From: a virus
Virus record (IMG/VR): IMGVR_UViG_3300017605_001532
Coordinates: 1-37,767 of that record
DNA length: 37,767 nucleotides
Strand: one strand, 5' to 3'
This document shows positions 1,422 to 16,463 of the stretch, piece by piece. The notes under the pieces were generated by a model. It ran no database searches. It was not told the DNA's origin and saw only the letters and a program-made list of their open reading frames with translations. Within the stretch, counting starts at the first letter, position 1. Each line of letters starts with the position of its first letter. The translations under genes were made by a program, and so were the position numbers.

Positions 1422-2612
1422 ATGGCAACAGCAACGACTCCCAAGGCGGCTGCTCCAGGAGCAACCGCAGCGACAGACACGGCAACGGTCGCACAATCCA
1501 CCGTGGTTACTACTGACGCCAAACCAGGCGCGCAGGCCGAAACTCCTACCTCACTGGAAAAGTCTCTCAAGGAAATCGGGATTACGTTCGGTTCGAATGA
1601 ATCGGACAAAGTCGCGGCTCCCGCCGAGACGGAATTACCGGCGAAGCCTGAGCCTGGTCAAGAACCATCACCAGACCCTGAGCCCGCCAAGGAAAATGTT
1701 GATATCGAGGAACCGGCCCCCGCGGAAGCGGACAAGGGCGAGGACCCCGACGACACTGTAGACGAATCATCTTCTCAATGGCCCGAATCTGCCCTGCACG
1801 AGGTCTCCAAACTTCGGGCGCAGAAACGGGAGCTTAAATCCAAAGCGACCGAGGCGGCCACCAAGCTCGCGGAGCTGGAGGGACGCCTCACCGAAGCAGA
1901 GAGCAAACTGGCCGAGGAGGCGGAGTCGCCGAACCGGGGAACCGGGGAACCGGCGGGTCGGAGCGCGGCGCTGGCGGACGTGAAGACGTTGCCGGAATTG
2001 CGCAAGCGCACGGCGGAAGCCGAGGAGCTTCTGGAATGGTGCGATGACCAACTCATCGCACTGCGCGAGAACCCGACGAGCGTCGAGCAAGCGCTCAGGG
2101 CCAACAAAGTTATCCTCAGTGACCGCGATGGGCAGGAGGATTTCAGCCGCGATAGGATGGAGGCTTTCGTGCTGAGCACCAGGCGCAGGGTCAACACGAC
2201 TTTGCAAAAGCACGTGCCCGCCAGGGAGCATTTCCTGGAGGTCAACGCCCAGAGCGAAACCAACGCTGCCAAATTGTTCCCGTGGTACAAGGACAAAGCC
2301 AGTCCTGAATACCAACTCTCCCAGCAGATACTGCGAGCACACCCGGAAATCCAACAGTGGCCAGACTGGAAAGTGGCCGTGGGGATTCAGGTGCGCGGCT
2401 TGATGGAAATGCGAAAAGCCGCGGCGCCGCGGACCAACCAGGCGCAGCTCCCGGTCATTGCTCCGCGGGTGCCGGGTATTCCGGCCAGGTCGGCGGCGCG
2501 GGTGGATGGACGGGCCGAAGCGCTTTCGAGCGCCAGCGAGAAGATTCGTAATCCCAAAAATGGGGAAGAAGTGGTGTCGGCAATCAGCACGCTCCTGGGA
2601 CAAACCAAATGA
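1422..2612 (+). CDS. Putative capsid scaffolding protein
   Basis: A 396-aa protein directly upstream of the major capsid gene. Residues 1-60 are Ala/Thr-rich low-complexity sequence. Residues 60-118 are strongly acidic and Pro/Glu-rich. Residues 125-168 form a heptad-like charged coiled coil (LRAQKRELKSKATEAATKLA and onward). The remainder is helical. This composition and position fit assembly scaffolds of tailed phages, which organise capsid subunits on the inside of the procapsid and then leave. No protease motif is evident. The call rests on context and composition, since scaffolds share little sequence. Start at ATG 1422; no strong Shine-Dalgarno (SD) is seen. Confidence 0.6.
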   Translation: MATATTPKAAAPGATAATDTATVAQSTVVTTDAKPGAQAETPTSLEKSLKEIGITFGSNESDKVAAPAETELPAKPEPGQEPSPDPEPAKENVDIEEPAPAEADKGEDPDDTVDESSSQWPESALHEVSKLRAQKRELKSKATEAATKLAELEGRLTEAESKLAEEAESPNRGTGEPAGRSAALADVKTLPELRKRTAEAEELLEWCDDQLIALRENPTSVEQALRANKVILSDRDGQEDFSRDRMEAFVLSTRRRVNTTLQKHVPAREHFLEVNAQSETNAAKLFPWYKDKASPEYQLSQQILRAHPEIQQWPDWKVAVGIQVRGLMEMRKAAAPRTNQAQLPVIAPRVPGIPARSAARVDGRAEALSSASEKIRNPKNGEEVVSAISTLLGQTK

Positions 2613-2650
2613 AAGCGTGGTTCGTAAGTCAGTCGTTCCCTTAAACCAAA

Positions 2651-3670
2651 ATGTTAATGCCGCAAAATGTAGTGGGCAACCAGCAGGACTGGGCTCAGTA
2701 CATCACCACCGCAGACGAGCATAAATGCCCGCTGTTAAAACTCATCCCCAAAGGATCAAAGCCGGTCAACCGGCTCTATCAATACCAGGTCGATGCCTAC
2801 ACGGACCCGACACCCAAATCGTGGCCCGATGGCAAGGACGTGGACGCGTACTCGAGCGCCGGCCAGAACCGCGCTGAACTCAAGGCGCGTGTGCAAAAGT
2901 TCGTGCAGACCGCCGCCGTCTCGCTGATGGCGCAGGACGTGACCAACGCTGCCGGCGTCAATGACGAGCTGGCTCGCGAAATCAAAAAGAAGCTGTTCGA
3001 GATGTCGCGGGACATCGAGTGCAGCGCCGGCTCGGACCAGGCCGCTTACGAAGATGACGGCATTACTGCCGACAAATTCCAAGGCATGGGGCTCTGGTTG
3101 CAAAACGGCTCGGCTAATCAGCTCTACCCGGTGCCGACCACGCCCATCAATTACACGACGCCGGCCGCGAGCATCTACTCGGACACGAAGGCGAACCTCA
3201 CGGAAAATGCCGTGCGCGCCGTGCTCGAATCACGCTGGCTGGCCACGGGCAAGTCGGACACGACGCTGGCGCTGGTCTGCGGCTCGCAGCTCAAGCAACG
3301 GTTTTCGAGTTTCCAGTTCTACATTCCGTCGGACCTCTCGACGGTCAACTCGGCGCGGGTCACCAATCGCAACGAGGGCGACAGGTCGCTCAGTTACGGG
3401 ATTGATTTCTACAACTCCGAGTTCGGGAACTTCGAGTTGCACTTAACCAAGTGGAACGCGCACGCCAATTACGGCGGCACCGCGGGCAAGTCGGCCTGGC
3501 GCGGGTACGCCATCTCGCCCGGTATGTGGGAATGGCGCTGGAACACCATGCCAGTGGTGTGGAAGGAAGAATTCAAGGGGGGCAGCTATAAGGCCGCCGC
3601 CTATTCCATCCTGATGTTGGTCTGCAAGACACCATTGGACGGGGCGAAATTCGCGCCTTCGGATGCCTAA
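2651..3670 (+). CDS. Major capsid protein, DUF5309/SU10-type
   Basis: A 339-aa HK97-fold candidate. The early segment (PLLKLIPKGSKPVNRLYQYQ), the middle RAELKARVQKFVQTAAVSLM, and DELAREIKKKLFEMSRDIEC followed by an acidic loop resemble the SU10-like capsid family (DUF5309). In that family subunits are defined by 'thwe.d...', 'R..n..qi....v.vs' and a long helix with conserved E-x-x-ll features. This protein should build the icosahedral shell. Length is normal for the family (300-350 aa). Start is ATG 2651, with an in-frame ATG two codons later at 2657 as an alternative. It follows the scaffold-like gene by 38 bp and precedes a small head-associated gene, the usual head-module order. Confidence 0.8.
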   Translation: MLMPQNVVGNQQDWAQYITTADEHKCPLLKLIPKGSKPVNRLYQYQVDAYTDPTPKSWPDGKDVDAYSSAGQNRAELKARVQKFVQTAAVSLMAQDVTNAAGVNDELAREIKKKLFEMSRDIECSAGSDQAAYEDDGITADKFQGMGLWLQNGSANQLYPVPTTPINYTTPAASIYSDTKANLTENAVRAVLESRWLATGKSDTTLALVCGSQLKQRFSSFQFYIPSDLSTVNSARVTNRNEGDRSLSYGIDFYNSEFGNFELHLTKWNAHANYGGTAGKSAWRGYAISPGMWEWRWNTMPVVWKEEFKGGSYKAAAYSILMLVCKTPLDGAKFAPSDA

Positions 3671-5087: not shown

Positions 5088-5148
5088 CGTCGGAGCGTGG
5101 AGCGTCCAGCGTGACGCTCCTACGCTCGGACGCTCCCACGCTCTGACG
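5088..5148 (+). repeat. Palindromic GAGCGT-family element
   Basis: Left arm 5088-5107 and right arm 5128-5148 are near-perfect inverted repeats (about 20 bp, one bulge and one wobble). The 20-base middle contains a smaller palindrome (AGCGTGACGCT). The element fills the entire spacer between two genes, and its last base abuts the ATG at 5149. The repeat word ACGCTC/GAGCGT also appears in the coding starts at 4214, 7327, 10841 and 11266, so this is a family dispersed through the window. Confidence 0.8.
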
Positions 5149-5502: not shown

Positions 5503-5510
5503 ACTTTTTG

Positions 5511-5580
5511 AACAGGAGCAAGCAGAGAAAGCAGAGGGGAAGAGAGATTTTCTTCTCTGCGCTCTCTGCTGCCTCCTGTT
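5511..5580 (+). repeat. Palindromic AACAGGAG...CTCCTGTT element, copy 1
   Basis: The left arm is purine-rich (AACAGGAGCAAGCAGAGAAA and onward, 5511-5545). The right arm is its near complement, pyrimidine-rich and ending in CTCCTGTT (5551-5580). The element fills the spacer between genes. A small frame (ATG 5499, coupled by ATGA to the upstream stop, to TAA 5580-5582; 27 codons) runs through it and reads basic then hydrophobic, like a signal peptide. Further copies are at 9462 and 13927, and a half copy is at 13648. Confidence 0.8.
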
Positions 5581-5587
5581 AAATCTT

Positions 5588-6988: not shown

Positions 6989-7330
6989 ATGAAAAGAATA
7001 ATTGTCACACTGGCAGTCAGCGCGCTCGCGCTGGCAACGCTCTGGGCGGCCACCAATCCCATCCTCGTCATCGTTTCGAACCCGGCAGTGCCAGTGAGGG
7101 TAGGGACGGACCTGACCGCCAAGACGTTTGTCTTTGTCGGTATGAAAGGCACCACCAACAACACCGGGCGTGTCTGGATTCAAGTCAACCCGACCAACGC
7201 GGTCGGGGGCATACCGCTGCTGGCCGGCCAGGTGATTTCCGTCACGGTGCCCAGCAATGCGCGAGCGACCGATTTCTGGATTGGCGCGGAAACGACCAAT
7301 GACGGATGCACAGTGACGTTGTTTCAATGA
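6989..7330 (+). CDS. Exported beta-rich protein (113 aa) with signal peptide
   Basis: The N-terminus (MKRIIVTLAVSALALATLWA) is a classical Sec signal: two basic residues, a hydrophobic core of about 15 residues, and a small-residue cleavage site near A20/A21. The mature part is beta-rich with repeated Val/Thr/Asn (ILVIVSNPAVPVRVGTDLTA) and may form an immunoglobulin-like fold. It is the first of six exported products in this block and is coupled to the next gene by ATGA (7327-7330). A virion or surface protein is likely; the function is unknown. Confidence 0.6.
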   Translation: MKRIIVTLAVSALALATLWAATNPILVIVSNPAVPVRVGTDLTAKTFVFVGMKGTTNNTGRVWIQVNPTNAVGGIPLLAGQVISVTVPSNARATDFWIGAETTNDGCTVTLFQ

Positions 7331-9450
7331 AAACCCTCCTGACGCTCCTGACGCTCCTGACGCTCCTGACGGCCCAGGCCCAGGTCATCATCAACTCGCC
7401 GCCAGGGGTCATTCGCGACAACGGCACTAATGTCGTTATTCCACCGTCGCTATCGTTGGGGGACCTCAGCCAATCCGGGGCGACGACCATGACCGCTTTC
7501 GGGGACAGCCTCACCACGGGCGACGGGGCGACTACCGCGGCCAATCGTTACGCCGATTTAATCGCCGCGGGCAAAGCCTATACGTTGACTAATGCAGCCG
7601 TGAGCGGGACGCAGCTCGCCGACGCCGGCCAGCTCGATGTGATTTACGCGATGCCCGGATTGTATGACCTGAACTACACGCTGCTGACGGGCGTCAACGA
7701 TATGCGAGCCCGTGGCACCAACGCGGCCCCGCTCCAGAATTATGAGGATGCCCTGAGCGCGGCCCTGGCCTGGCTGGCCATCCCGGCAAATCGGCGCACG
7801 GTGGGCAGTAACGGAACGATGGCAGGCACCTGGACCAACACGACGCGGTACGGCTTGCTGACGGGCAAGAGGTCGTACACATCGGGTGACACGATTACTT
7901 TCAGCGCCCGCGGCTCCGTGGTCTACGTCGGCGCGACGCGCCTGACGACAAACGGCGGCTCGTTCACCGTTACGATAGACGGGGTCGCTTACGGTGGTAC
8001 CAACTCCTGCACGGCCGGCGACACGACGCCCACGGGCCGCACTTATTTGCCGTTCCTGGTGCGCATCCCGAACTTGCCGGACATCGTCCATTCGGTAGTC
8101 ATCACGCTCCTCAGCTCGGCCGAGGTGCAAATCGATTGGTGCGGTGGAAACTCAGGAACGGTGCAGCGGACCGGACCAAACGTCTACGTGGGCAACTGTG
8201 TTCGCCTCAACGCGACGGGTTACGCCTCGGGCGCGCCATACAATTTGGGGTCCGACGCCGCCGTATTCGCAATCAACCGGCGCATTCTCTCGGTCTGCAA
8301 ACGCCTGGCCGCCGACGGGCTCAACGTCGCGCACGTGGACGCCAGCGCGATATATGAATCGACGGCAGACATCGCGCTCGATGGCATCCATCCCAACGAC
8401 GCCGGCCACGCTCACATAGCGGCCGCGTTCTTGCGCGAAATGAATTTCATGTCATACCCGCGGGAGCGGCAGAGCGCTCTTTGGCAACGGGGTTACACCC
8501 CGAGCTTTGCCCTGGGCGAGGCGCCCAATACTTTCGCGTTCGACGCGGCCACTGGCGGCATTGGGATGGCCGGCGGGCTTAACATCGGCGGGCAAACGCC
8601 TCCAGCGGCCGGTTTTCTCACGATGCAAAACCGGGCGGACATCGGTGGGGGCATTCAGGTTCTCGGCGCGATCGCCTCTCCGGTCGGCTCGGGCTCACTT
8701 GAGCTCGAATACAACAATCCGACAGCTTACTTCACGGCCTACAACCGTTCGGGCGCGGCTTGGAAACCAATCATCATCCGCGGCTCGGACATTACCTTTC
8801 AAAACAGCGGCACAACGGCGATGACGCTAATCGGCGGTGCGGTAAATATTCCGGGCACATTTCAACTCGGCCTGGACTCGGCGACCGCGACGGCTGTCCA
8901 GGTCAAGGGGCCGGCCGGCGTCGGCACGGACAAGGTGGGCGGCGACCTGGTCGCGGGCGCGGGGATTGGTACCGGGACCGGCCGAGGCGGGGCGCTCATT
9001 GGGAAAACATCTTTGTCGACAACTACCGGCTCGTCCGCGCAGAGCCAGTCGGTCCGCTACTATTACAGCGGCAAAGGAGTTGACCTGGTCGAATCCAGCG
9101 CGACGACCATCGCCAGCATCGCCGTCGGCACCGGCAAATATACCGCCGCGCAATTCTGGTGCACCGTCCATGCCGATAACGGCGTGGACTATCAGGCCTT
9201 CAGCGCCCGCGTCGCATTCAACGCGGTGAACAAAGCTGGCACGGTAACGGTGGGCACCATCACGCAAACCGACACGGTTATTGCGACGAGCTCGGGAACT
9301 TTGACGGTCACTTACACGGCCGTCGCCAACGGCGCGAATGTTGATCTCAAAGCCAACGCGGCCAGCTCGCTCACGCAAACCACGCTGCGCAGCAAGTGGG
9401 CAGTTACCGCTCTGAACTCCGACGACCTGGGAACGGTCACGCCGCAATGA
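7327..9450 (+). CDS. Exported SGNH/GDSL-hydrolase tail fibre
   Basis: Start is ATG 7327, in an ATGA overlap; the in-frame ATG at 7306 is less likely. The protein has 707 aa. Residues 1-19 are a signal peptide with four Leu-Leu-Thr units. An SGNH hydrolase follows: block I FGDSLTTG (S61), block II Gly in AVSG (G94), block III GVND (N124), block V DGIHPND (D352, H355), a complete Ser-Asp-His set. The stretch at about 165-280 between blocks III and V looks like an inserted beta-sandwich or carbohydrate-binding domain. From 390 on the protein is Gly/Ser/Thr-rich and fibre-like. It probably deacylates a surface polysaccharide (esterase activity on O-acetyl groups is typical for the fold). A Sec signal on a phage fibre is unusual. 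Confidence 0.8.
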   Translation: MKTLLTLLTLLTLLTAQAQVIINSPPGVIRDNGTNVVIPPSLSLGDLSQSGATTMTAFGDSLTTGDGATTAANRYADLIAAGKAYTLTNAAVSGTQLADAGQLDVIYAMPGLYDLNYTLLTGVNDMRARGTNAAPLQNYEDALSAALAWLAIPANRRTVGSNGTMAGTWTNTTRYGLLTGKRSYTSGDTITFSARGSVVYVGATRLTTNGGSFTVTIDGVAYGGTNSCTAGDTTPTGRTYLPFLVRIPNLPDIVHSVVITLLSSAEVQIDWCGGNSGTVQRTGPNVYVGNCVRLNATGYASGAPYNLGSDAAVFAINRRILSVCKRLAADGLNVAHVDASAIYESTADIALDGIHPNDAGHAHIAAAFLREMNFMSYPRERQSALWQRGYTPSFALGEAPNTFAFDAATGGIGMAGGLNIGGQTPPAAGFLTMQNRADIGGGIQVLGAIASPVGSGSLELEYNNPTAYFTAYNRSGAAWKPIIIRGSDITFQNSGTTAMTLIGGAVNIPGTFQLGLDSATATAVQVKGPAGVGTDKVGGDLVAGAGIGTGTGRGGALIGKTSLSTTTGSSAQSQSVRYYYSGKGVDLVESSATTIASIAVGTGKYTAAQFWCTVHADNGVDYQAFSARVAFNAVNKAGTVTVGTITQTDTVIATSSGTLTVTYTAVANGANVDLKANAASSLTQTTLRSKWAVTALNSDDLGTVTPQ
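7336..7371 (+). repeat. Four perfect tandem CTCCTGACG units encoding a signal-peptide core
   Basis: The 9-bp unit CTCCTGACG occurs four times without change, in phase with the codons, so it reads Leu-Leu-Thr four times in the signal peptide of the SGNH fibre. The unit shares the ACGCTC word with the palindrome at 5088-5148 and with the signal-peptide codons at 10841 and 11266. In-phase expansion would change the length of the hydrophobic core by three residues per unit. Confidence 0.9.
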
Positions 9451-10844
9451 TAACACTACAATTTAACAGGAGGAAGCAGAGGCAGCAGAGGACAAAGAGG
9501 AATTGTTTCCTCTGCTTGCTCCTGTTGAATTTCTTGGCTCCTGTGTACGCCGCGCAAATCAACCGCATCCCGCCCACAACCAGTTACTCCCGCGGCTTGC
9601 TCACCAACGAAACAGCGGTGGCGAGCAGGGCCTATCTGCAAATCTCCGATGGGCTGGTCTACAATTTTGACCCCAACAGTTTCTACGTGGTCGCGGGCAC
9701 CAATGTTTTCCTTCTTCCCGGCGCGTCGTTGACGAACATGATTCTGGTCGGCAACACGCTCAACCCGCAGCTCGATGTCGGCGCGAGCTCGGGCGTGTTC
9801 AACGTGAACGCCGCGCTCTCGACCGAATTTTCGATGCGCCTGGCGGCCGATGCCACGCTCACATTCACCAACTGGAATGACTGGCACCCCGTCACCGTCA
9901 CGGTGACGAACACAGGAACTTTCTCGCTCACGTATGGCAACACGATGTTTTGGGTACCTAACCAGAACTCGACGCAGGTGACCAATGACTGGGGCGTCGG
10001 CGCGATTAACATCTACCATTTCTACAAGGACACCGGCGGGAACATCGTCGCCAGCGACCCGGAACGAAGGGCGACCGCTGGCTTCACCACGATCAATCCG
10101 ACTGATGGTTACATCCCGGTCCGCACCAACGGCACGACTTTCGTTGACAGCCCTTTCAAGGTGAGCTCGCCGGGTGTCCTGCAGTACAATGGTCAAGCTG
10201 GCTGGCTGGTAAGCTCCGTGAATTACGGCGTGGGGGTCGGTTATCTCAATGGCGCCGGTAATGGCTCGTACAACGTGGGGGTCGGTTATTTGTCTCTGCA
10301 AAACAATACGAGCGGGGCCTATAACGTCGCCATCGGCTCGATGGCGGGCAATCAAATCACCGACGAGCAGAGCAACGTCTACCTCGGCTCAGTGGCCGGC
10401 AGCCTTCTCAAGGGCAGCAAGAACATTGTCGTGGGAGCCGACACCGGGAATGTCAACTGGCGCTATGCGGACAACAGCGTGGTGATCGGTTACGGAAAAT
10501 GGGGTACCACGGGAGTGCTGACAAACTTCTATCATTCCGTGGATATTGGCGGCTGGAATCCGGCAGCCGCGAACACCAACACTCTCAACGGCGTCACCAA
10601 CTCGATTGTGCTTGGCTATGCCGCGCTGACCCACGGGTCAAACACCGCCACCATCGGTGATACGAATATCACGGTGCTCTATGTCGGTGCCGGCCGCATC
10701 GGCTGGTTCCAGGGCGCCGGCTCGCCCGAGACCGTCGTTGTCGCTGACATCGGCTCGTTCTATTCGCGCAAGGACGGCGGCGCAGTGACGAGTTTCTACG
10801 TCAAGGAGAGTGGCACAGGGAACACAGGATGGATTGCAAAATGA
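9447..10844 (+). CDS. Exported tail fibre with GxxN-type beta repeats
   Basis: Start is ATG 9447 in an ATGA overlap; an upstream in-frame ATG (9396) lies inside the SGNH gene. The protein has 465 aa. The signal peptide is unusual: a 19-residue basic region (FNRRKQRQQRTKR) then a hydrophobic core (CFLCLLLLNFLAPVYA) with a likely cut near A35/A36. Nearly all of it is encoded by a palindromic repeat. The middle (about residues 255-320) carries repeats of the form 'YNVGVGY....N.SGAYNVAIGSMAGN', as in trimeric phage fibres and autotransporter head domains. The C-terminus continues the pattern (NSIVLGYAALTHGSNTATIG). A trimeric surface fibre is likely. Confidence 0.7.
   Translation: MITLQFNRRKQRQQRTKRNCFLCLLLLNFLAPVYAAQINRIPPTTSYSRGLLTNETAVASRAYLQISDGLVYNFDPNSFYVVAGTNVFLLPGASLTNMILVGNTLNPQLDVGASSGVFNVNAALSTEFSMRLAADATLTFTNWNDWHPVTVTVTNTGTFSLTYGNTMFWVPNQNSTQVTNDWGVGAINIYHFYKDTGGNIVASDPERRATAGFTTINPTDGYIPVRTNGTTFVDSPFKVSSPGVLQYNGQAGWLVSSVNYGVGVGYLNGAGNGSYNVGVGYLSLQNNTSGAYNVAIGSMAGNQITDEQSNVYLGSVAGSLLKGSKNIVVGADTGNVNWRYADNSVVIGYGKWGTTGVLTNFYHSVDIGGWNPAAANTNTLNGVTNSIVLGYAALTHGSNTATIGDTNITVLYVGAGRIGWFQGAGSPETVVVADIGSFYSRKDGGAVTSFYVKESGTGNTGWIAK
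9462..9529 (+). repeat. Palindromic AACAGGAG...CTCCTGTT element, copy 2 (inside coding sequence)
   Basis: The left arm 9462-9502 (TTTAACAGGAGGAAGCAGAG and onward) and the right arm 9506-9529 (ending CTCCTGTTGAA) are complementary. Here the element lies within the fibre gene: the left arm encodes the basic region and the right arm the hydrophobic core of the signal peptide. It is the same family as 5511-5580 and 13927-13990. Confidence 0.85.
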
Positions 10845-11269
10845 AAACGCTCCTCACGCTCTACGCTCTGACGCTCCTGGCGCTCCCGGCCCAGACACCG
10901 CCGCCCGTCACCGTCCCGGTTGTCCTCACCGTGACACTGCCCGTGGCGCCGCCGAGCGTCACCAACGTGACGAATGTTTACCCGGTGACGGTGATGACGA
11001 ACAAGACGTTGCTGACGGTAATTTCCAAACCCGTGGTTGACCCGCTCGTGGGGAGCCGTCTCTTCCTGGTTGCGTACGGGCCAATGACGCTCCTGGCGAC
11101 CAACTTCACCAATGACCGGCTGACGACGCTCTACCTGGCCAACCCGAACCTGTGGCCCATCACCTGGCCGGCCGGCCGCTGGCGCGGAAACAGGACACCC
11201 TCGCCAACGAATGATTTCCCCATCGTGCTGTTTGAATCGATTAACGGAGTGCTGATTGCCACGGAATGA
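10841..11269 (+). CDS. Exported Val/Thr/Pro-rich protein (142 aa)
   Basis: ATG 10841 overlaps the upstream stop (ATGA); an in-frame ATG four codons earlier (10829) is possible. The signal peptide MKTLLTLYALTLLALPAQ is again rich in Leu-Thr and encoded by ACGCTC-type units. The mature protein starts Pro/Val-rich (TPPPVTVPVVLTVTLPVAPP) and then becomes beta-rich. No domain is recognised. It lies between two fibre/spike genes and is coupled to the second by ATGA at 11266-11269, so a spike accessory or chaperone role is possible. Confidence 0.55.
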   Translation: MKTLLTLYALTLLALPAQTPPPVTVPVVLTVTLPVAPPSVTNVTNVYPVTVMTNKTLLTVISKPVVDPLVGSRLFLVAYGPMTLLATNFTNDRLTTLYLANPNLWPITWPAGRWRGNRTPSPTNDFPIVLFESINGVLIATE

Positions 11270-13206
11270 AGACCACGCTCCTAACGCTCCTGACGCTCCT
11301 GACGCTCCTACCAGCGCAAGCCGCCACCTACTACGCTTCGCCCGCGGGAACCGCCATCGGCACCGGCACTTTTGCTTCGCCCTGGGACCTGCAGACTGCC
11401 TTCAACCAGGTCGGGCTCGTCGGCGCCGGGGATACGCTAAACCTCAGAGGAGGAGTTTATACGAACGCGCCGCAAGGGAGTGTCGCGGGATCCCAGGAAG
11501 GCTGGATATTTCGCACGGTGATTGCCGGCACGGCTGGCGGACAGTTGCTCGTCCAATCGTACCCTGGCGAATGGGCGGAAATTGACGGCGGGGCTTTTGG
11601 TGGGGTGGCGTATGTCTATCACGCGTGCGCCCGGCCCACGGTCCTGGTGGGCAATGTCATTCCGGGCACGACTGATGGGCAGTACATAACCTTCAAGAAC
11701 ATCGGTTTCTTTTCGAGCTCGACCGAGGCGCGGTTGAGCGGGAGCAACTCGAGTTTTCCGACCGACATCACGCGGTCGGACGGCCTTTACGTGTTGGCCA
11801 AGGGCGTCAAGGTCATCAATTGCGTTTTCCACAACCTGAGCACGGGCATCGAGGCGTTTGGCGCGACGGCCATCGGCCAGGAGTTCTACGGCAACCTGGT
11901 GTTCAACAGCGGCTGGCAGGGCACCCCCAACACGCATGGGCATAGCATTTACGCGCAGGGCCCCGTAGCAGCCGGCGGCCTGGTGAATATGTTCCAGCGC
12001 AATATATCCAGCTCGCCCTGGGACCGCGGCACGCAGAATTACGGGTCGAGCTCGGCGGAGATTTCCCACTATCGTTGGAGCGAGAATTTGTTCATGGGCA
12101 CCCAGGGCCAGCATGGCGGAGCGCTCATCGGCACCCGCACGGGCGGCGCGGCGGACCGGCTGCAAGACATCGTTTTCACGAACAACTTCGGTTACGGCGC
12201 CGATCTTTCGCTCGACCAATTCCCGGACGAGGGCGCGTACCACGACGCGATCGTGGCCAACAATTATTTTGTGGCGTGCAAGGTCGAGATGAGTAGCTGG
12301 AAAGCGCTCACGTTCACGAACAACACAATCATCGACGCGGTCGACATCGTCTTCGGCAACGTGTCACTGACAACCAACGGCTCGTTTCTGCCGTGGAACT
12401 TTAACCGGAACACTTACGTCTTCGCCGCGGCCGTGGCCAACAATTTCGGCCTCGAAGGCCAGGGCTCATTCCCCATCGCCACCTGGCGGACCAAGACCGG
12501 GTATGACTTGAACTCGACGGTGAGCGGCACGTTGCCAGTGACTAATTACCCCATTGTCCTGAACAACGCCTATGACACCAATCGGGCCACTGTCCTCTTT
12601 TACAACTGGTCCGGCGGAACCAATGCGGCGGTGGACGTGAGCGCGCTGGGCTGGGCCGATGGCGACGCGTGGAATGCGCGCAACGTGCAGGATTATTTTG
12701 GCGATGTCACTACGAACCTCGTCACCGCGCAGATAGTGAACCTCGATATGCGAGCGGCCGCGCACACAGTAGCGGTGCCCTATGGCGCGGCGGTGGCGCT
12801 GGATGCCAAAAGTTTCCCGACCTTCGGTGCGTGGATTTTGACCAGGACCGGCACCGCGGCGTTGCCGCCGCCAGCGACGACCTGGGTGCTTACGGTGGCC
12901 TCGTCCAATCCAGGCAGCGGAGCGAACATCGTGCTGGCGCCGGCCTCCAACGATGGCACGAGCAGCGGGGCGACCTCGATGATGCGCACTTATAATGACG
13001 GCGTGGTGACGAGCCTCACTTCACCGATCGCGTTGCCCAGTGGCAACACCTTCAGCAAATGGCAACGCAACGGGGTGGATTACTCGACCAACGCGGCGTG
13101 CGCGATGACCAACGTCGCGGCGACGACGATGACGGCTTGCTATGCGACGCAAGTGCCGCCGAGTGGCGCTGGCGGGGCGACGACGGGGCGTCGGAGGAGA
13201 CCGTGA
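11266..13206 (+). CDS. Exported right-handed beta-helix spike with C-terminal InlB-like repeat
   Basis: A 646-aa protein. Signal peptide at residues 1-20 with Leu-Leu-Thr repeats, cut near AQA/A. The mature protein opens with TYYASPAGTAIGTGTFASPW, the usual start of pectate-lyase-like parallel beta-helix proteins. It continues with many short Asn/Gly/Val coils (VFTNNFGYGADLS; LTFTNNTIIDAVDIVFGN) to about residue 530. Residues 545-630 (WVLTVASSNPGSGANIVLAP, then FSKWQRNGVDYS) match the divergent InlB-type bacterial repeat common on secreted proteins. The architecture suggests a polysaccharide-binding or -cleaving spike. The InlB-like domain is more typical of bacterial surface proteins than of phage spikes. 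Confidence 0.7.
   Translation: MKTTLLTLLTLLTLLPAQAATYYASPAGTAIGTGTFASPWDLQTAFNQVGLVGAGDTLNLRGGVYTNAPQGSVAGSQEGWIFRTVIAGTAGGQLLVQSYPGEWAEIDGGAFGGVAYVYHACARPTVLVGNVIPGTTDGQYITFKNIGFFSSSTEARLSGSNSSFPTDITRSDGLYVLAKGVKVINCVFHNLSTGIEAFGATAIGQEFYGNLVFNSGWQGTPNTHGHSIYAQGPVAAGGLVNMFQRNISSSPWDRGTQNYGSSSAEISHYRWSENLFMGTQGQHGGALIGTRTGGAADRLQDIVFTNNFGYGADLSLDQFPDEGAYHDAIVANNYFVACKVEMSSWKALTFTNNTIIDAVDIVFGNVSLTTNGSFLPWNFNRNTYVFAAAVANNFGLEGQGSFPIATWRTKTGYDLNSTVSGTLPVTNYPIVLNNAYDTNRATVLFYNWSGGTNAAVDVSALGWADGDAWNARNVQDYFGDVTTNLVTAQIVNLDMRAAAHTVAVPYGAAVALDAKSFPTFGAWILTRTGTAALPPPATTWVLTVASSNPGSGANIVLAPASNDGTSSGATSMMRTYNDGVVTSLTSPIALPSGNTFSKWQRNGVDYSTNAACAMTNVAATTMTACYATQVPPSGAGGATTGRRRRP
11278..11310 (+). repeat. 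Tandem CTCCTNACG units encoding a second signal-peptide core
   Basis: CTCCTAACG, CTCCTGACG, CTCCTGACG and a partial CTCCTA follow each other in phase with the codons and encode Leu-Leu-Thr repeats in the signal peptide of the beta-helix spike. The unit is the same as at 7336-7371, nearly 4 kb away, with one third-base change, which implies copying or a shared source. Confidence 0.85.
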
Positions 13207-13216
13207 AAGCGTATGC

Positions 13217-13627
13217 ATGACAGCCGAAGAACGAACGCTGTGGACCGGCGTCGCCGTATTGGTAAGCGGCCAGATAATCCAACGGTTGGATGCCTGGCGG
13301 GTGGCCAGAAAGACCAAGGACGTCGCAGAGGCGGCCGCCTTAAAGGTTAAGAAGGACCTGGACGAGTCCTCGGCGAATTACTTGCTCAAGCTCGAAGTGA
13401 TCCGCATCGAGGGCAACTCGAAAATGGGCGCCCAGAAAAAGAAAACGTGGGACCTGGCGCTGGCGCTGGCGCACGCCACACGCGACAACGACCACATGGC
13501 CCAGGCCCGCCTGGCCGAAAAGGAATACGTGGACCATCAAGAGGCCCAGCACCTGGCGGATGAACGGGTACGGGTCTACGTCGAGGCACAGAAATTGAAA
13601 ATATTAACGAACGCGGTGAACTTATGA
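13217..13627 (+). CDS. Membrane-anchored coiled-coil protein, inner-spanin/holin-like candidate
   Basis: Start is ATG 13217; the open frame extends upstream to 13142 into the spike gene. The protein has 136 aa. An N-terminal apolar segment (LWTGVAVLVSGQII) is followed by a long charged helix with coiled-coil character (AALKVKKDLDESSANYLLKL; ALAHATRDNDHMAQARLAEK). The next gene, overlapping by ATGA, encodes a small lipoprotein. A membrane-tethered coiled coil beside a lipoprotein is the layout of a two-component spanin, which bridges inner and outer membranes at lysis. The apolar segment is short and I see no endolysin nearby, so this is tentative. Confidence 0.45.
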   Translation: MTAEERTLWTGVAVLVSGQIIQRLDAWRVARKTKDVAEAAALKVKKDLDESSANYLLKLEVIRIEGNSKMGAQKKKTWDLALALAHATRDNDHMAQARLAEKEYVDHQEAQHLADERVRVYVEAQKLKILTNAVNL

Positions 13628-13911
13628 CGAAGAACAAAATCTTAACACTCTGCTGCTGCCTCCTGTTCCTCTCCGGCTGCATGTCGGTCTCCTATACCCG
13701 CACCGAACCCGGCGGCGAGAAGGTGAGCTTCAGCACGTCCTCGATGTGGACCAAGAAACAAATCAAGGACGTGACCTACGGCGCCGGCACCAACGGCCTG
13801 CGCACGTTCCGGCTCCAGGGCTTCACCGAAGACCAGACCGCGGTAGCCATCCAGGCGCTCGTTGCTGCGCTGGCAGCTTACAGCAACCATCCGGCGCCCG
13901 TTGTCCCATGA
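13624..13911 (+). CDS. Small lipoprotein, outer-spanin-like candidate
   Basis: MTKNKILTLCCCLLFLSGC is a lipoprotein signal with lipobox L16-S-G-C19. The 76-residue mature part has a beta-type start (VSYTRTEPGGEKVSFSTSS) and an Ala-rich helix at the end. It is coupled by ATGA to the coiled-coil membrane gene. The hydrophobic core is encoded by DNA identical in style to the right arm of the AACAGGAG/CTCCTGTT repeat (13648-13667). It could be the outer spanin partner, or a surface lipoprotein made in the lysogen. Confidence 0.55.
   Translation: MTKNKILTLCCCLLFLSGCMSVSYTRTEPGGEKVSFSTSSMWTKKQIKDVTYGAGTNGLRTFRLQGFTEDQTAVAIQALVAALAAYSNHPAPVVP
13648..13667 (+). repeat. Half copy of the CTCCTGTT repeat inside a lipoprotein signal
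   Basis: CTCTGCTGCTGCCTCCTGTT matches the right arm of the elements at 5511, 9462 and 13927. No left arm is visible upstream. Read in frame it gives Leu-Cys-Cys-Cys-Leu-Leu-Phe, the hydrophobic core of the lipoprotein signal. Confidence 0.6.
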
Positions 13912-14000
13912 AAGAACCAAATTTGGAACAGGAGATAGCAGAGAACGCAGAGGAATTCTTCCCTCTCTGCTCTCTCTGCTTCCTCCTGTTAAAACTCTGA
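13908..14000 (+). CDS. Repeat-encoded 30-codon open frame
   Basis: This frame starts in an ATGA overlap with the lipoprotein gene (13908-13911) and ends in TGATG shared with the nozzle gene start (14000). It bridges the two genes without a gap and lies almost wholly inside a palindromic repeat. The product is acidic then hydrophobic (PLCSLCFLLLKL). It may be a leader that keeps ribosomes moving into the nozzle gene and not a functional protein. Confidence 0.3.
   Translation: MKEPNLEQEIAENAEEFFPLCSLCFLLLKL
13927..13990 (+). repeat. Palindromic AACAGGAG...CTCCTGTT element, copy 3
   Basis: The left arm at 13927-13955 (AACAGGAGATAGCAGAGAAC and onward) and the right arm at 13959-13990 ending CTCCTGTT form a long inverted repeat around a GAATTC centre. 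It occupies the junction between the lipoprotein and tail-nozzle genes. As RNA it could form a stem of more than 20 pairs with a few bulges. Confidence 0.8.
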
Positions 14001-16375
14001 TGAGCGGCTACCGCAGATATAATCCAGGCGACGACGCCCACGTCACCGACGGCGACTCCGGCTGGCTGGGCGTGAACATGCGCCTGGACCCGTGCCAGCT
14101 CCCGCCCGGGATCTGCGCCGGGGCTAAGAACAAACGGTTTCGGTTCGGGAAAGCTTCGACGCGGCGCGGTATCGTTAAACTGCCGTACTTTGCCCGGCTC
14201 GGCGCCCCGTTCCCGCTGGTGTTCCCGATTGACTTCGAACAGCCATGGCCGATTGGCGTGAACATCCACGGCGCCGGCACGTTCGATGACCCCGATGACG
14301 CCAAGTGGACCATCATCGCCGCGGATGGACGGGTGTTTGCCACCGCGCAGGGGATTGTCGCGTTCAAGCTGCGGCTGCCCGTGGGCGTCGTGCTGAGCGG
14401 GCGGGTGTTCTTTGTCCAGGCGGTGAGCAAGTTTTATATGTTCCGCGGCCCGGACGCCTCGACGCTCGTGATGGAAGATGTCGCGATCGGATGGACCGAG
14501 GTGACCCAGGAGAACTCGGGTGCTGGCAATGGCACCGGGACTTTGACGATTCCCAATTCGTCGTTCGCGCTGTTCTTTCAGAACCGGCTCTTCGTGCTCT
14601 ATGGGCGGGATGAGATTGCGGTGAGCGATGCGCTGAACATGACACGCTACTCAATCACGAACGCTTTCCGGATAAACAAAGGGTCGAGCGACGCGCTCAC
14701 GGGCATCTACGCTTGGAACGATACGACGGTGGTGGTGACCAAGGAACACAGCATTTACGCGGTGTCAAATCTAATTCCCAATTCGATGGGTGACTTTGAC
14801 CAGGCGCGTCTCGAGGTGGTGACGACGGACTGGGGCATCATCGCGCCAAAATCCATGGTGGCGGTCGGCACCGACCTGCTCGGCCTCTCGCAACGGGGAG
14901 TGGTGAGTATCCGGCAGACGGAGACCAACAAGCTCCAGGCGGTGGACCTGCCACTGTCCGACCCCATCGCGCCGCTCATCCAAAGCATCCACTGGCTTCA
15001 CGCGCACCTGGCAGTGGGCGCGTTCTGGGATAACAAATATTACCTGGCCATCCCCCGTGACAGCGCGGAGGTCGAGGGACAGGAGCTGCTGGTCAATCGT
15101 TACTACGACGAGGACGGCGAGCTGCGCATTTCGACACTTGTGCCGACGCGCACGTATCGCGTGGTGCTGCCCGAGAACGCGTTCATCGCGGATGATGTCA
15201 CGTATGACGCGACTCTGCTCCCAACCACCGAGGATGTCGTGTCGATTGACGGCAAAGGGACTTTCACCGGGACGCCCGGCGCGCTGGTCAAGGCCAGCCT
15301 GCGCCAGGTATTCAAAGGGGTGAACAACGCCGTGCTCGTGTATGACACGCTCAACAGCCAATGGGCTGGCTACGATGAATCGCGGGCGTTGATGGTGCAG
15401 GACTTTCTGCTGGCCGATTACAACGACGGCGAGCGTCTGCAGTTCGTGAGCGCCGATGGGTTCTTCAATCTGTACGAGGAAGGGTTCGACGACGATATTT
15501 TCCAGGAAAACCTGTCGCCCTACCTCGACCTGGTGGTGGACCAGCTCCCGGCCCCGGGCGACACCATCACGGTGCAACTGCCCGATGCCACGGGCGGCAT
15601 CGTGGTGACCGTCACCAACGACGCGGTGAACACTGCCGCGACCATCGATGACACCGCGACGTGGGGTTGCGCGGACCTCGAAACCGCCCAACGCAATCTG
15701 TGGACCGACCCCAATAATGTCGGCGGTTACAAGCATTGGCTCACAACGGGCAACACCGTGGTGCAGATTGCCGGCGGCGTGCGCATCCAAAGCCAGACTG
15801 TGTCGCCGCCCTTGGTGGTGTTCGTTGGGAGCAACTGGAGTTATCGGAAGGTAGGGAATGGGCCGGCCATCATCCCGATTGGTATCGAGGATTATTTTCT
15901 CTCGCGCGGTTACATGCCGCAGACGGAGGACGAACGGTTGCTGGGCAAGTATGTGCCCAAGAATTTCAAGGGGGCCACGATGAGCCTGCGCACATGGGAC
16001 CCGCTGTTGACCATCCTCACGCGCACCGACGGCGAGAACGAGAAGAAGGTATTGCGCGACCTGCTGCGCAAAAGCCGGCGCAAATCGTATGTGTGGGGCC
16101 GCCAGGCCATCGACACGATGAACAACGACGCCGGCCACGGCAACCCTTTCCGCGAGGATTACTCGATTCTCCTGGCCGAGAGCGACCAGTTCGAGCTCGG
16201 CCCCGATGAAGGGGTGGACCCGGAGATTCTCCAGGAATGCACGGAAGGGGCCAAGCTAAGGGCGTCTGGGAAGTGGCTGCAGGTCGAGGTAAGCGGGTTT
16301 CAGGGCAGGTCGGAGATTACCTCCATTGAGATTAAGGCCACGACGGGGGCGAGAAGGGCAGGGGCGATAGCGTGA
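14000..16375 (+). CDS. Tail nozzle / tail tubular protein B-like
   Basis: Start ATG 14000 shares a base with the preceding stop; the open frame reaches further upstream through the lipoprotein gene and is rejected. The protein has 791 aa. The N-terminus (GWLGVNMRLDPCQLPPGICA, then AKNKRFRFGKASTRRGIVKL) is the typical opening of podovirus nozzle proteins. These carry 'N.r...G....R.G' and then a beta-propeller. FALFFQNRLFVLYGRDEIAV and AVGAFWDNKYYLAIPRDSAE are propeller-blade motifs of this family. The C-terminal third is extended. The protein should close the tail tube distally and hold spikes. No signal peptide, unlike the preceding block. Confidence 0.75.
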   Translation: MSGYRRYNPGDDAHVTDGDSGWLGVNMRLDPCQLPPGICAGAKNKRFRFGKASTRRGIVKLPYFARLGAPFPLVFPIDFEQPWPIGVNIHGAGTFDDPDDAKWTIIAADGRVFATAQGIVAFKLRLPVGVVLSGRVFFVQAVSKFYMFRGPDASTLVMEDVAIGWTEVTQENSGAGNGTGTLTIPNSSFALFFQNRLFVLYGRDEIAVSDALNMTRYSITNAFRINKGSSDALTGIYAWNDTTVVVTKEHSIYAVSNLIPNSMGDFDQARLEVVTTDWGIIAPKSMVAVGTDLLGLSQRGVVSIRQTETNKLQAVDLPLSDPIAPLIQSIHWLHAHLAVGAFWDNKYYLAIPRDSAEVEGQELLVNRYYDEDGELRISTLVPTRTYRVVLPENAFIADDVTYDATLLPTTEDVVSIDGKGTFTGTPGALVKASLRQVFKGVNNAVLVYDTLNSQWAGYDESRALMVQDFLLADYNDGERLQFVSADGFFNLYEEGFDDDIFQENLSPYLDLVVDQLPAPGDTITVQLPDATGGIVVTVTNDAVNTAATIDDTATWGCADLETAQRNLWTDPNNVGGYKHWLTTGNTVVQIAGGVRIQSQTVSPPLVVFVGSNWSYRKVGNGPAIIPIGIEDYFLSRGYMPQTEDERLLGKYVPKNFKGATMSLRTWDPLLTILTRTDGENEKKVLRDLLRKSRRKSYVWGRQAIDTMNNDAGHGNPFREDYSILLAESDQFELGPDEGVDPEILQECTEGAKLRASGKWLQVEVSGFQGRSEITSIEIKATTGARRAGAIA

Positions 16376-16377
16376 GA

Positions 16378-16463
16378 ACAGAGGTCAGAGTCAGAGGTCA
16401 GAAGTCAGAGGTCAGAGCGGACTCCTCTTCGCTGACATCTGATCTCTGTCCTCTGACCTCTGG
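16378..16463 (+). repeat. Palindromic CAGAGGTCAGAG-type element
   Basis: The left arm (16378-16417) is built from repeated GAGGTCAGA/AAGTCAGA words. The right arm (16431-16462) carries the complement, CTGACATCTGATCTCTG then CTCTGACCTCTG. It fills the 115-bp spacer between the nozzle gene and the gene at 16491. It is a different sequence family from the AACAGGAG elements but has the same design: purine-rich tandem words and a complementary pyrimidine-rich arm at a gene boundary. Confidence 0.8.

Follow-up and report, generated by a model that had tools for sequence, protein, structure and literature searches.

A dispersed palindromic repeat encodes predicted signal peptides at the starts of phage genes

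Results

The palindrome within a fibre-like gene

The sequence analysed here is a linear IMG/VR virus record, IMGVR_UViG_3300017605_001532, whose whole length of 37,767 nucleotides (nt) we call the window; it encodes an SU10-type capsid protein, a DnaB helicase and an integrase-like gene. A tail-fibre-like gene of 465 amino acids (aa) at 9447–10844 (plus strand) contains, beginning five codons past its ATG, a palindromic repeat at 9462–9529 (plus strand) that is read in frame, encodes residues 6–27 (FNRRKQRQQRTKRNCFLCLLLL) and lies within a predicted Sec signal peptide spanning residues 1–35 (9447–9551, plus strand). The repeat is one copy of a dispersed family that is in excess at phage gene starts, where it usually reads as a signal peptide.

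The start at ATG 9447 is anchored by its ATGA overlap with the stop of the preceding GDSL-hydrolase gene, and the coding score of 9447–10844 (0.275) is the best among the six frames. The open reading frame (ORF) begins MITLQFNRRKQRQQRTKRNCFLCLLLLNFLAPVYA|AQINR: the purine-rich arm of the palindrome gives FNRRKQRQQRTKR, the pyrimidine-rich arm gives CFLCLLLL, and the native sequence next to it adds NFLAPVYA|AQ. By the simple sequence rule with which all the signals discussed here were predicted, the peptide has a net charge of +7 followed by a 10-residue core (FLCLLLLNFL, mean hydropathy 2.74) and a site at 35, with cleavage at VYA|AQ (or YAA|Q). The palindrome folds at −35.7 kcal/mol, compared with a mean of −17.3 for 200 shuffled versions (z = −6.67), none of which folded as well.

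An earlier note made from the letters of the window had described these complementary arms and quoted their basic and hydrophobic peptides, and it was right about both. Its statement that the repeat encodes nearly the whole signal peptide holds for the charged and hydrophobic parts; the repeat does not reach residues 1–5 or the cleavage region (FLAPVYA). The sister copies that it placed at 5511 and 13927 are also real palindromes. The first, at 5508–5583, is an intergenic copy of the palindrome; the second, at 13924–13993, lies just upstream of the gene at 14006 and is probably intergenic. The latter was considered as a further signal peptide and rejected, as translation of the gene most probably begins past the element, at 14006.

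The putative identity of the 465-aa protein as a tail fibre is supported mainly by its C-terminal ~100 residues, which match the ends of annotated tail fibres and tail spikes, together with a structural-protein PHROG that covers its middle.

The repeat family

Members of the family share the motif TTNAACAGGAGNNA(A/G)CNGAG...CTC...CTCCTGTTNAA, have the ends TTNAAC...GTTNAA and form hairpins of 50–100 nt. The motif is present in assemblies of Verrucomicrobiota and Planctomycetota and in metagenomic viral contigs, among them phages not related to one another, whose putative hosts are assigned here by the occurrence of the repeat. Genomes from two Verrucomicrobiota families contain 53–62 arm matches each, and a reversed-pattern control gave none. 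With 62 arm matches in one genome, the element is dispersed, multi-copy and non-coding with terminal inverted repeats, as expected of a miniature inverted-repeat transposable element (MITE). It was not present in cultured phage records, where the only hits were chance 26-nt matches in T4-like phages; an Rfam search gave no family match, and the core 17-mer of the motif was not found printed in the literature searched.

No cognate transposase was identified for the element. Y1_Tnp proteins are encoded in G008, G116, G004 and G007 and a search of four phage records (G000, G015, G009 and G011) found none. A link to the Y1_Tnp/RAYT transposases was rejected, since the element arms do not lie at the borders of the 12 Y1_Tnp loci examined.

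Copies at gene starts in phages and bacteria

The positions of 46 distinct palindromic copies in metagenomic phage contigs depart from expectation: 26 are intergenic (11.5 expected), 13 lie within ~45 nt of a gene start (3.8 expected), six are internal (28.1 expected) and one is C-terminal (2.6 expected). The N-terminal excess is significant among all copies (p = 6e-5) and among the 20 intragenic ones, of which 13 are N-terminal (p = 1e-8). Genes were selected by a codon-usage filter applied to the sequence downstream of the element, blind to signals, and the window copy at 13924–13993 was entered as N-terminal because alternative upstream starts exist for its gene.

Eleven of the 13 gene-start copies, each in a different gene and together spread over six phage contigs, can be read as signal peptides (window 9447; G009 8915 and 10933; G011 15143 and 25387; G014 30641; G015 4111, 4677, 8903 and 32808; L023 3007). 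In ten of these 11 an uncharged hydrophobic core comes after a positively charged n-region, G011 15143 being missed narrowly, and lipoboxes follow the core in G011 25387 and G015 32808. The simple rule is positive for 10 of the 13 genes with an N-terminal element, compared with 14 of 101 element-free genes of the same phages (Fisher p = 6e-6). In most cases an arm supplies the hydrophobic core. The left arm is read in all three frames (NRRKQR, LTGGSRG and QQEETER), while nine of the 13 copies have the right arm in the frame that gives hydrophobic residues (LCFLLFN). Three of the element genes start with an ATGA or GTGA overlap with the preceding stop. The pattern described in the earlier note, a basic region from one arm and then a hydrophobic core from the other, is thus seen in no fewer than 11 phage genes.

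Bacterial copies behave differently. Among 198, 164 are intergenic and 12 lie at gene starts where 17.3 are expected, and at most one of the latter is a convincing signal case. The share of copies at starts differs between phages and bacteria (p = 7e-5), as does the signal-coding share (p = 4e-8; 4e-4 counting bacterial palindromes only). The genome-wide bias of position, which the earlier note had named as a test of its idea, is therefore found in phages (13 against 3.8) and not in bacteria, and because the bacterial copies show no enrichment, the gene-start bias belongs to the phages. An extension of the gene-start rule to bacteria was rejected on these counts, with one exception. At locus L252 (bacterial G008, minus strand, element near 1997–2055), the palindrome is an N-terminal extension of an efflux-type outer-membrane lipoprotein, whose core, coded by CTCACGCTC repeats, and lipobox lie downstream of the palindrome.

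Homologues without the repeat

A direct search of viral contigs for relatives of the 465-aa protein gave none, and a homologue was found through an operon neighbour. This closest homologue lies in L150, a related operon with ordinary signals throughout (2272–3324, E = 3e-27), and starts MIHLKKLLVFALALIALSVNAQQQIIP, compared with MITLQ-[element]-...AAQINRIP in the window. Since this homologue has an ordinary signal, the window element, which comes after codon 5, sits in a gene with relatives already of exported type. Two further comparisons have the same form. The window gene at 11266 and G015 4111 are 50% identical beginning at the cleavage site, and their signals have different sources: CTCCTGACG repeats in the window and the palindrome in G015, with an ordinary signal (MRLLLLCLLLICQGSAEA) in L151. 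The spanin-like lipoproteins of the window (13624) and G015 are 65% identical from the lipobox Cys on, and only that of G015 has the palindrome, ahead of the lipobox core. Such ortholog pairs with and without the element place an in-frame palindrome in otherwise conserved ORFs, as in Rickettsia palindromic elements (RPEs). Because the repeat-free homologues carry ordinary signals on the same mature proteins, the repeat has apparently replaced or rebuilt existing export signals and has not produced export from nothing; the claim that it ‘creates export signals’ was overstated.

Composition of the arms

In 55 copies away from gene starts, 14 of 330 frames (4.2%) are signal-like, meaning that they stay open and place a positive stretch ahead of a hydrophobic core, and only 14 of the 55 copies have at least one such frame of the six. 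Random hairpins with the arm composition of the element give 4.3%, whereas shuffled elements give 0.56%, unskewed random hairpins 0.4% and the reversed order 0.3%. Composition thus biases the repeat about tenfold toward a signal reading, which is far from a guarantee. The suggestion that such base composition makes a ‘ready-made signal peptide’ is sound as a statement of bias, since a reading of this kind is some ten times as frequent among purine-rich inverted repeats as among unskewed ones, and goes too far as a description of any one copy.

The run of exported-type genes

The fibre-like gene lies within a run of plus-strand genes for exported-type products that opens with a 113-aa protein (6989–7330) with an ordinary signal peptide. 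It is followed by the GDSL-hydrolase/tail-fibre-like protein (7330–9450), whose signal peptide MKTLLTLLTLLTLLTAQA comes from a (CTCCTGACG)n tandem repeat at 7336–7371. Beyond the 465-aa gene lie a 142-aa protein (10841–11269) with a hydrophobic, element-free N-terminus (MKTLLTLYALTLLALPAQ) that the simple rule missed, the G015 homologue of which has the palindrome as its signal peptide; a 646-aa protein (11266–13206) with a signal peptide coded by the tandem repeat; and the small spanin-like lipoprotein (13624–13911) with an ordinary signal, MTKNKILTLCCCLLFLSGC. Sec-type or lipoprotein signals are found on all genes in such consecutive fibre-like or structural-like runs (window 6989–13911; L150 1828–8805; L143 8915–13782). 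Ordinary cytoplasmic tail assembly offers no explanation for Sec signals on fibre-like phage proteins, and the finding points to phages of this kind.

The second repeat, (CTCCTGACG)n, supplies the signal-peptide sequence (TLLTLLTLL) in a further two genes, at 7336–7371 and 11278–11304, and an imperfect ACGCTC-rich relative of it is intergenic at ~5112–5147. An inverted repeat of the CAGAGGTCAGA type between genes at 16392–16462 is apparently one more dispersed family. The GDSL domain forms a separate 706-aa signal-bearing protein in the window and in G015 is part of a 1356-aa protein with no evident signal peptide (loci compared: L135 4677–8903, window 7330–9450 and L048 4553–8623).

Discussion

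Proposed capture of a repeat as a signal peptide

The arrangement at 9447 is quite likely to have arisen when a copy of the dispersed palindrome entered the 5′ end of a gene that was already of exported type and was kept there as a Sec signal peptide, the same having happened in other phage genes. The repeat would be kept because its frame gives a polar, usually basic n-region from the purine-rich arm and a Leu/Cys/Phe hydrophobic core from the pyrimidine-rich arm, with the native start and native cleavage region completing the signal peptide around it. The sequences themselves show the family, the in-frame position of its copies, the surplus of copies where phage genes begin and the ordinary signals of the homologues. 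It is inferred that these signals work in export, that the repeat was retained by selection rather than merely tolerated, and that it arrived by transposition or recombination.

Several observations weigh against such a capture. The bacterial copies lack any start enrichment, no DNA-level empty site was found for the element, and copies are signal-ready at only ~4% per frame. In G009 8915 and G015 32808 a native-like core follows the element, and the repeat is an N-terminal extension of the n-region only. The hairpins of coding copies are not relaxed relative to intergenic copies (p = 0.71), and there is therefore no sign that RNA or DNA structure has been given up for coding. In addition, the signal rule, coding filter and thresholds were set during exploration, and several of the phage cases were already known when the formal count was made.

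Some of these observations would fit passive tolerance, in which the repeat inserts anywhere, is best tolerated in the signal regions of exported proteins and lengthens the n-region with no selection as a signal. Signal peptides are degenerate in sequence, the homologues already bear signals, insertions within mature domains are strongly depleted, and the core lies after the element in G009 8915, the G015 lipoprotein and the bacterial L252. We nevertheless regard this as rather unlikely, as the right arm itself gives the core in those nine of 13 gene-start copies, proteins that would be coreless without the element, and the start excess is seen in phage copies and not in bacterial ones. The hairpin might instead act as an RNA or DNA structure in translation control, mRNA stability or termination, the coding match being secondary; it is strong, it folds equally well in coding and intergenic copies, most copies are intergenic, and the lack of a matching Rfam family can be listed in favour. 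This is improbable given the frame preference of the right arm and the signal-like reading at gene starts, the free variation of left-arm frame and distance from the ATG, and homologous genes that manage with ordinary signals and no hairpin.

It is more improbable still that the start has been mis-called and the fibre is translated, without a signal peptide, from a start past the element. A GTG at codon 33 could serve, and the coding scores are based on the downstream part only, but the ATGA overlap at 9447, the MI-L start and AAQ...IP common to the L150 homologue, and the predicted export signals on all the operon neighbours argue for the upstream ATG. The main role of the repeat shared by the 5′ ends of several fibre genes might also be to provide the homology by which mature fibre modules are shuffled while one common signal peptide is kept. 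In G015, near-identical elements do open three fibre genes that are adjacent but unrelated, and in G009 they open two; the window genes at 7330 and 11266 share a tandem repeat in the same place. However, no chimeric pair or breakpoint was observed, and since element frames differ among phages, simple module exchange would be blocked, which makes a recombination cassette doubtful.

In these phages, intergenic repeats of biased composition such as the purine/pyrimidine hairpin and the CTCCTGACG tandem repeat could be a standing source of new signals, fibre export signals turning over by capture and letting modules swap behind a common signal; this extension is tentative. The system would be a repeated natural case in which a selfish or structural DNA repeat has been turned into a defined protein function, a predicted signal peptide, gained because a purine-rich hairpin codes for polar or basic residues in one arm and for hydrophobic ones in the complementary arm that follows. 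Because orthologs exist both with the repeat and without it, the turnover of signal peptides can be tested directly.

Comparison with known repeats

REP/REPIN sequences with their RAYT transposases are likewise short, dispersed intergenic palindromes, abundant in Verrucomicrobia too (PMC3733652, PMC2817692), and Y1_Tnp is encoded by the host genomes here. In contrast to them, the present copies have no GTAG/CGTC end tag, and their arms are absent beside the 12 Y1_Tnp loci. RPEs represent the general case of palindromes read in frame within protein genes; according to the description of them (Ogata 2000) in PMC2229807, they occur in many conserved genes with a neutral or slightly harmful effect. 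Insertion of the phage repeat, by contrast, appears from the sequences to be confined to the N-termini of exported-type genes, where it would supply a recognisable predicted function.

The closest likeness is to RU-2/YPAL, a MITE-like 168-bp element that is one component of the signal peptide predicted for Yersinia YPO1552, whereas homologues of YPO1552 from other genera have signals that bear no relation to the element (Delihas 2007, PMC2759123; PMC2229807). In both systems a repeat lies within a predicted signal peptide while the signals of homologues are unrelated to the repeat. RU-2/YPAL is one main bacterial case (plus YPO2495) in which the repeat contributes the hydrophobic cluster of one ORF, whereas the phage repeat is a 50–100-nt hairpin that occurs in at least 11 phage genes, uses both arms and exceeds the expected count. 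The earlier note's view that no described element makes export signals in this way must thus yield to a partial precedent in YPO1552; what is new here is the recurrence of such cases, the logic by which two arms form a signal, the bias toward phages and the signal swaps between orthologs.
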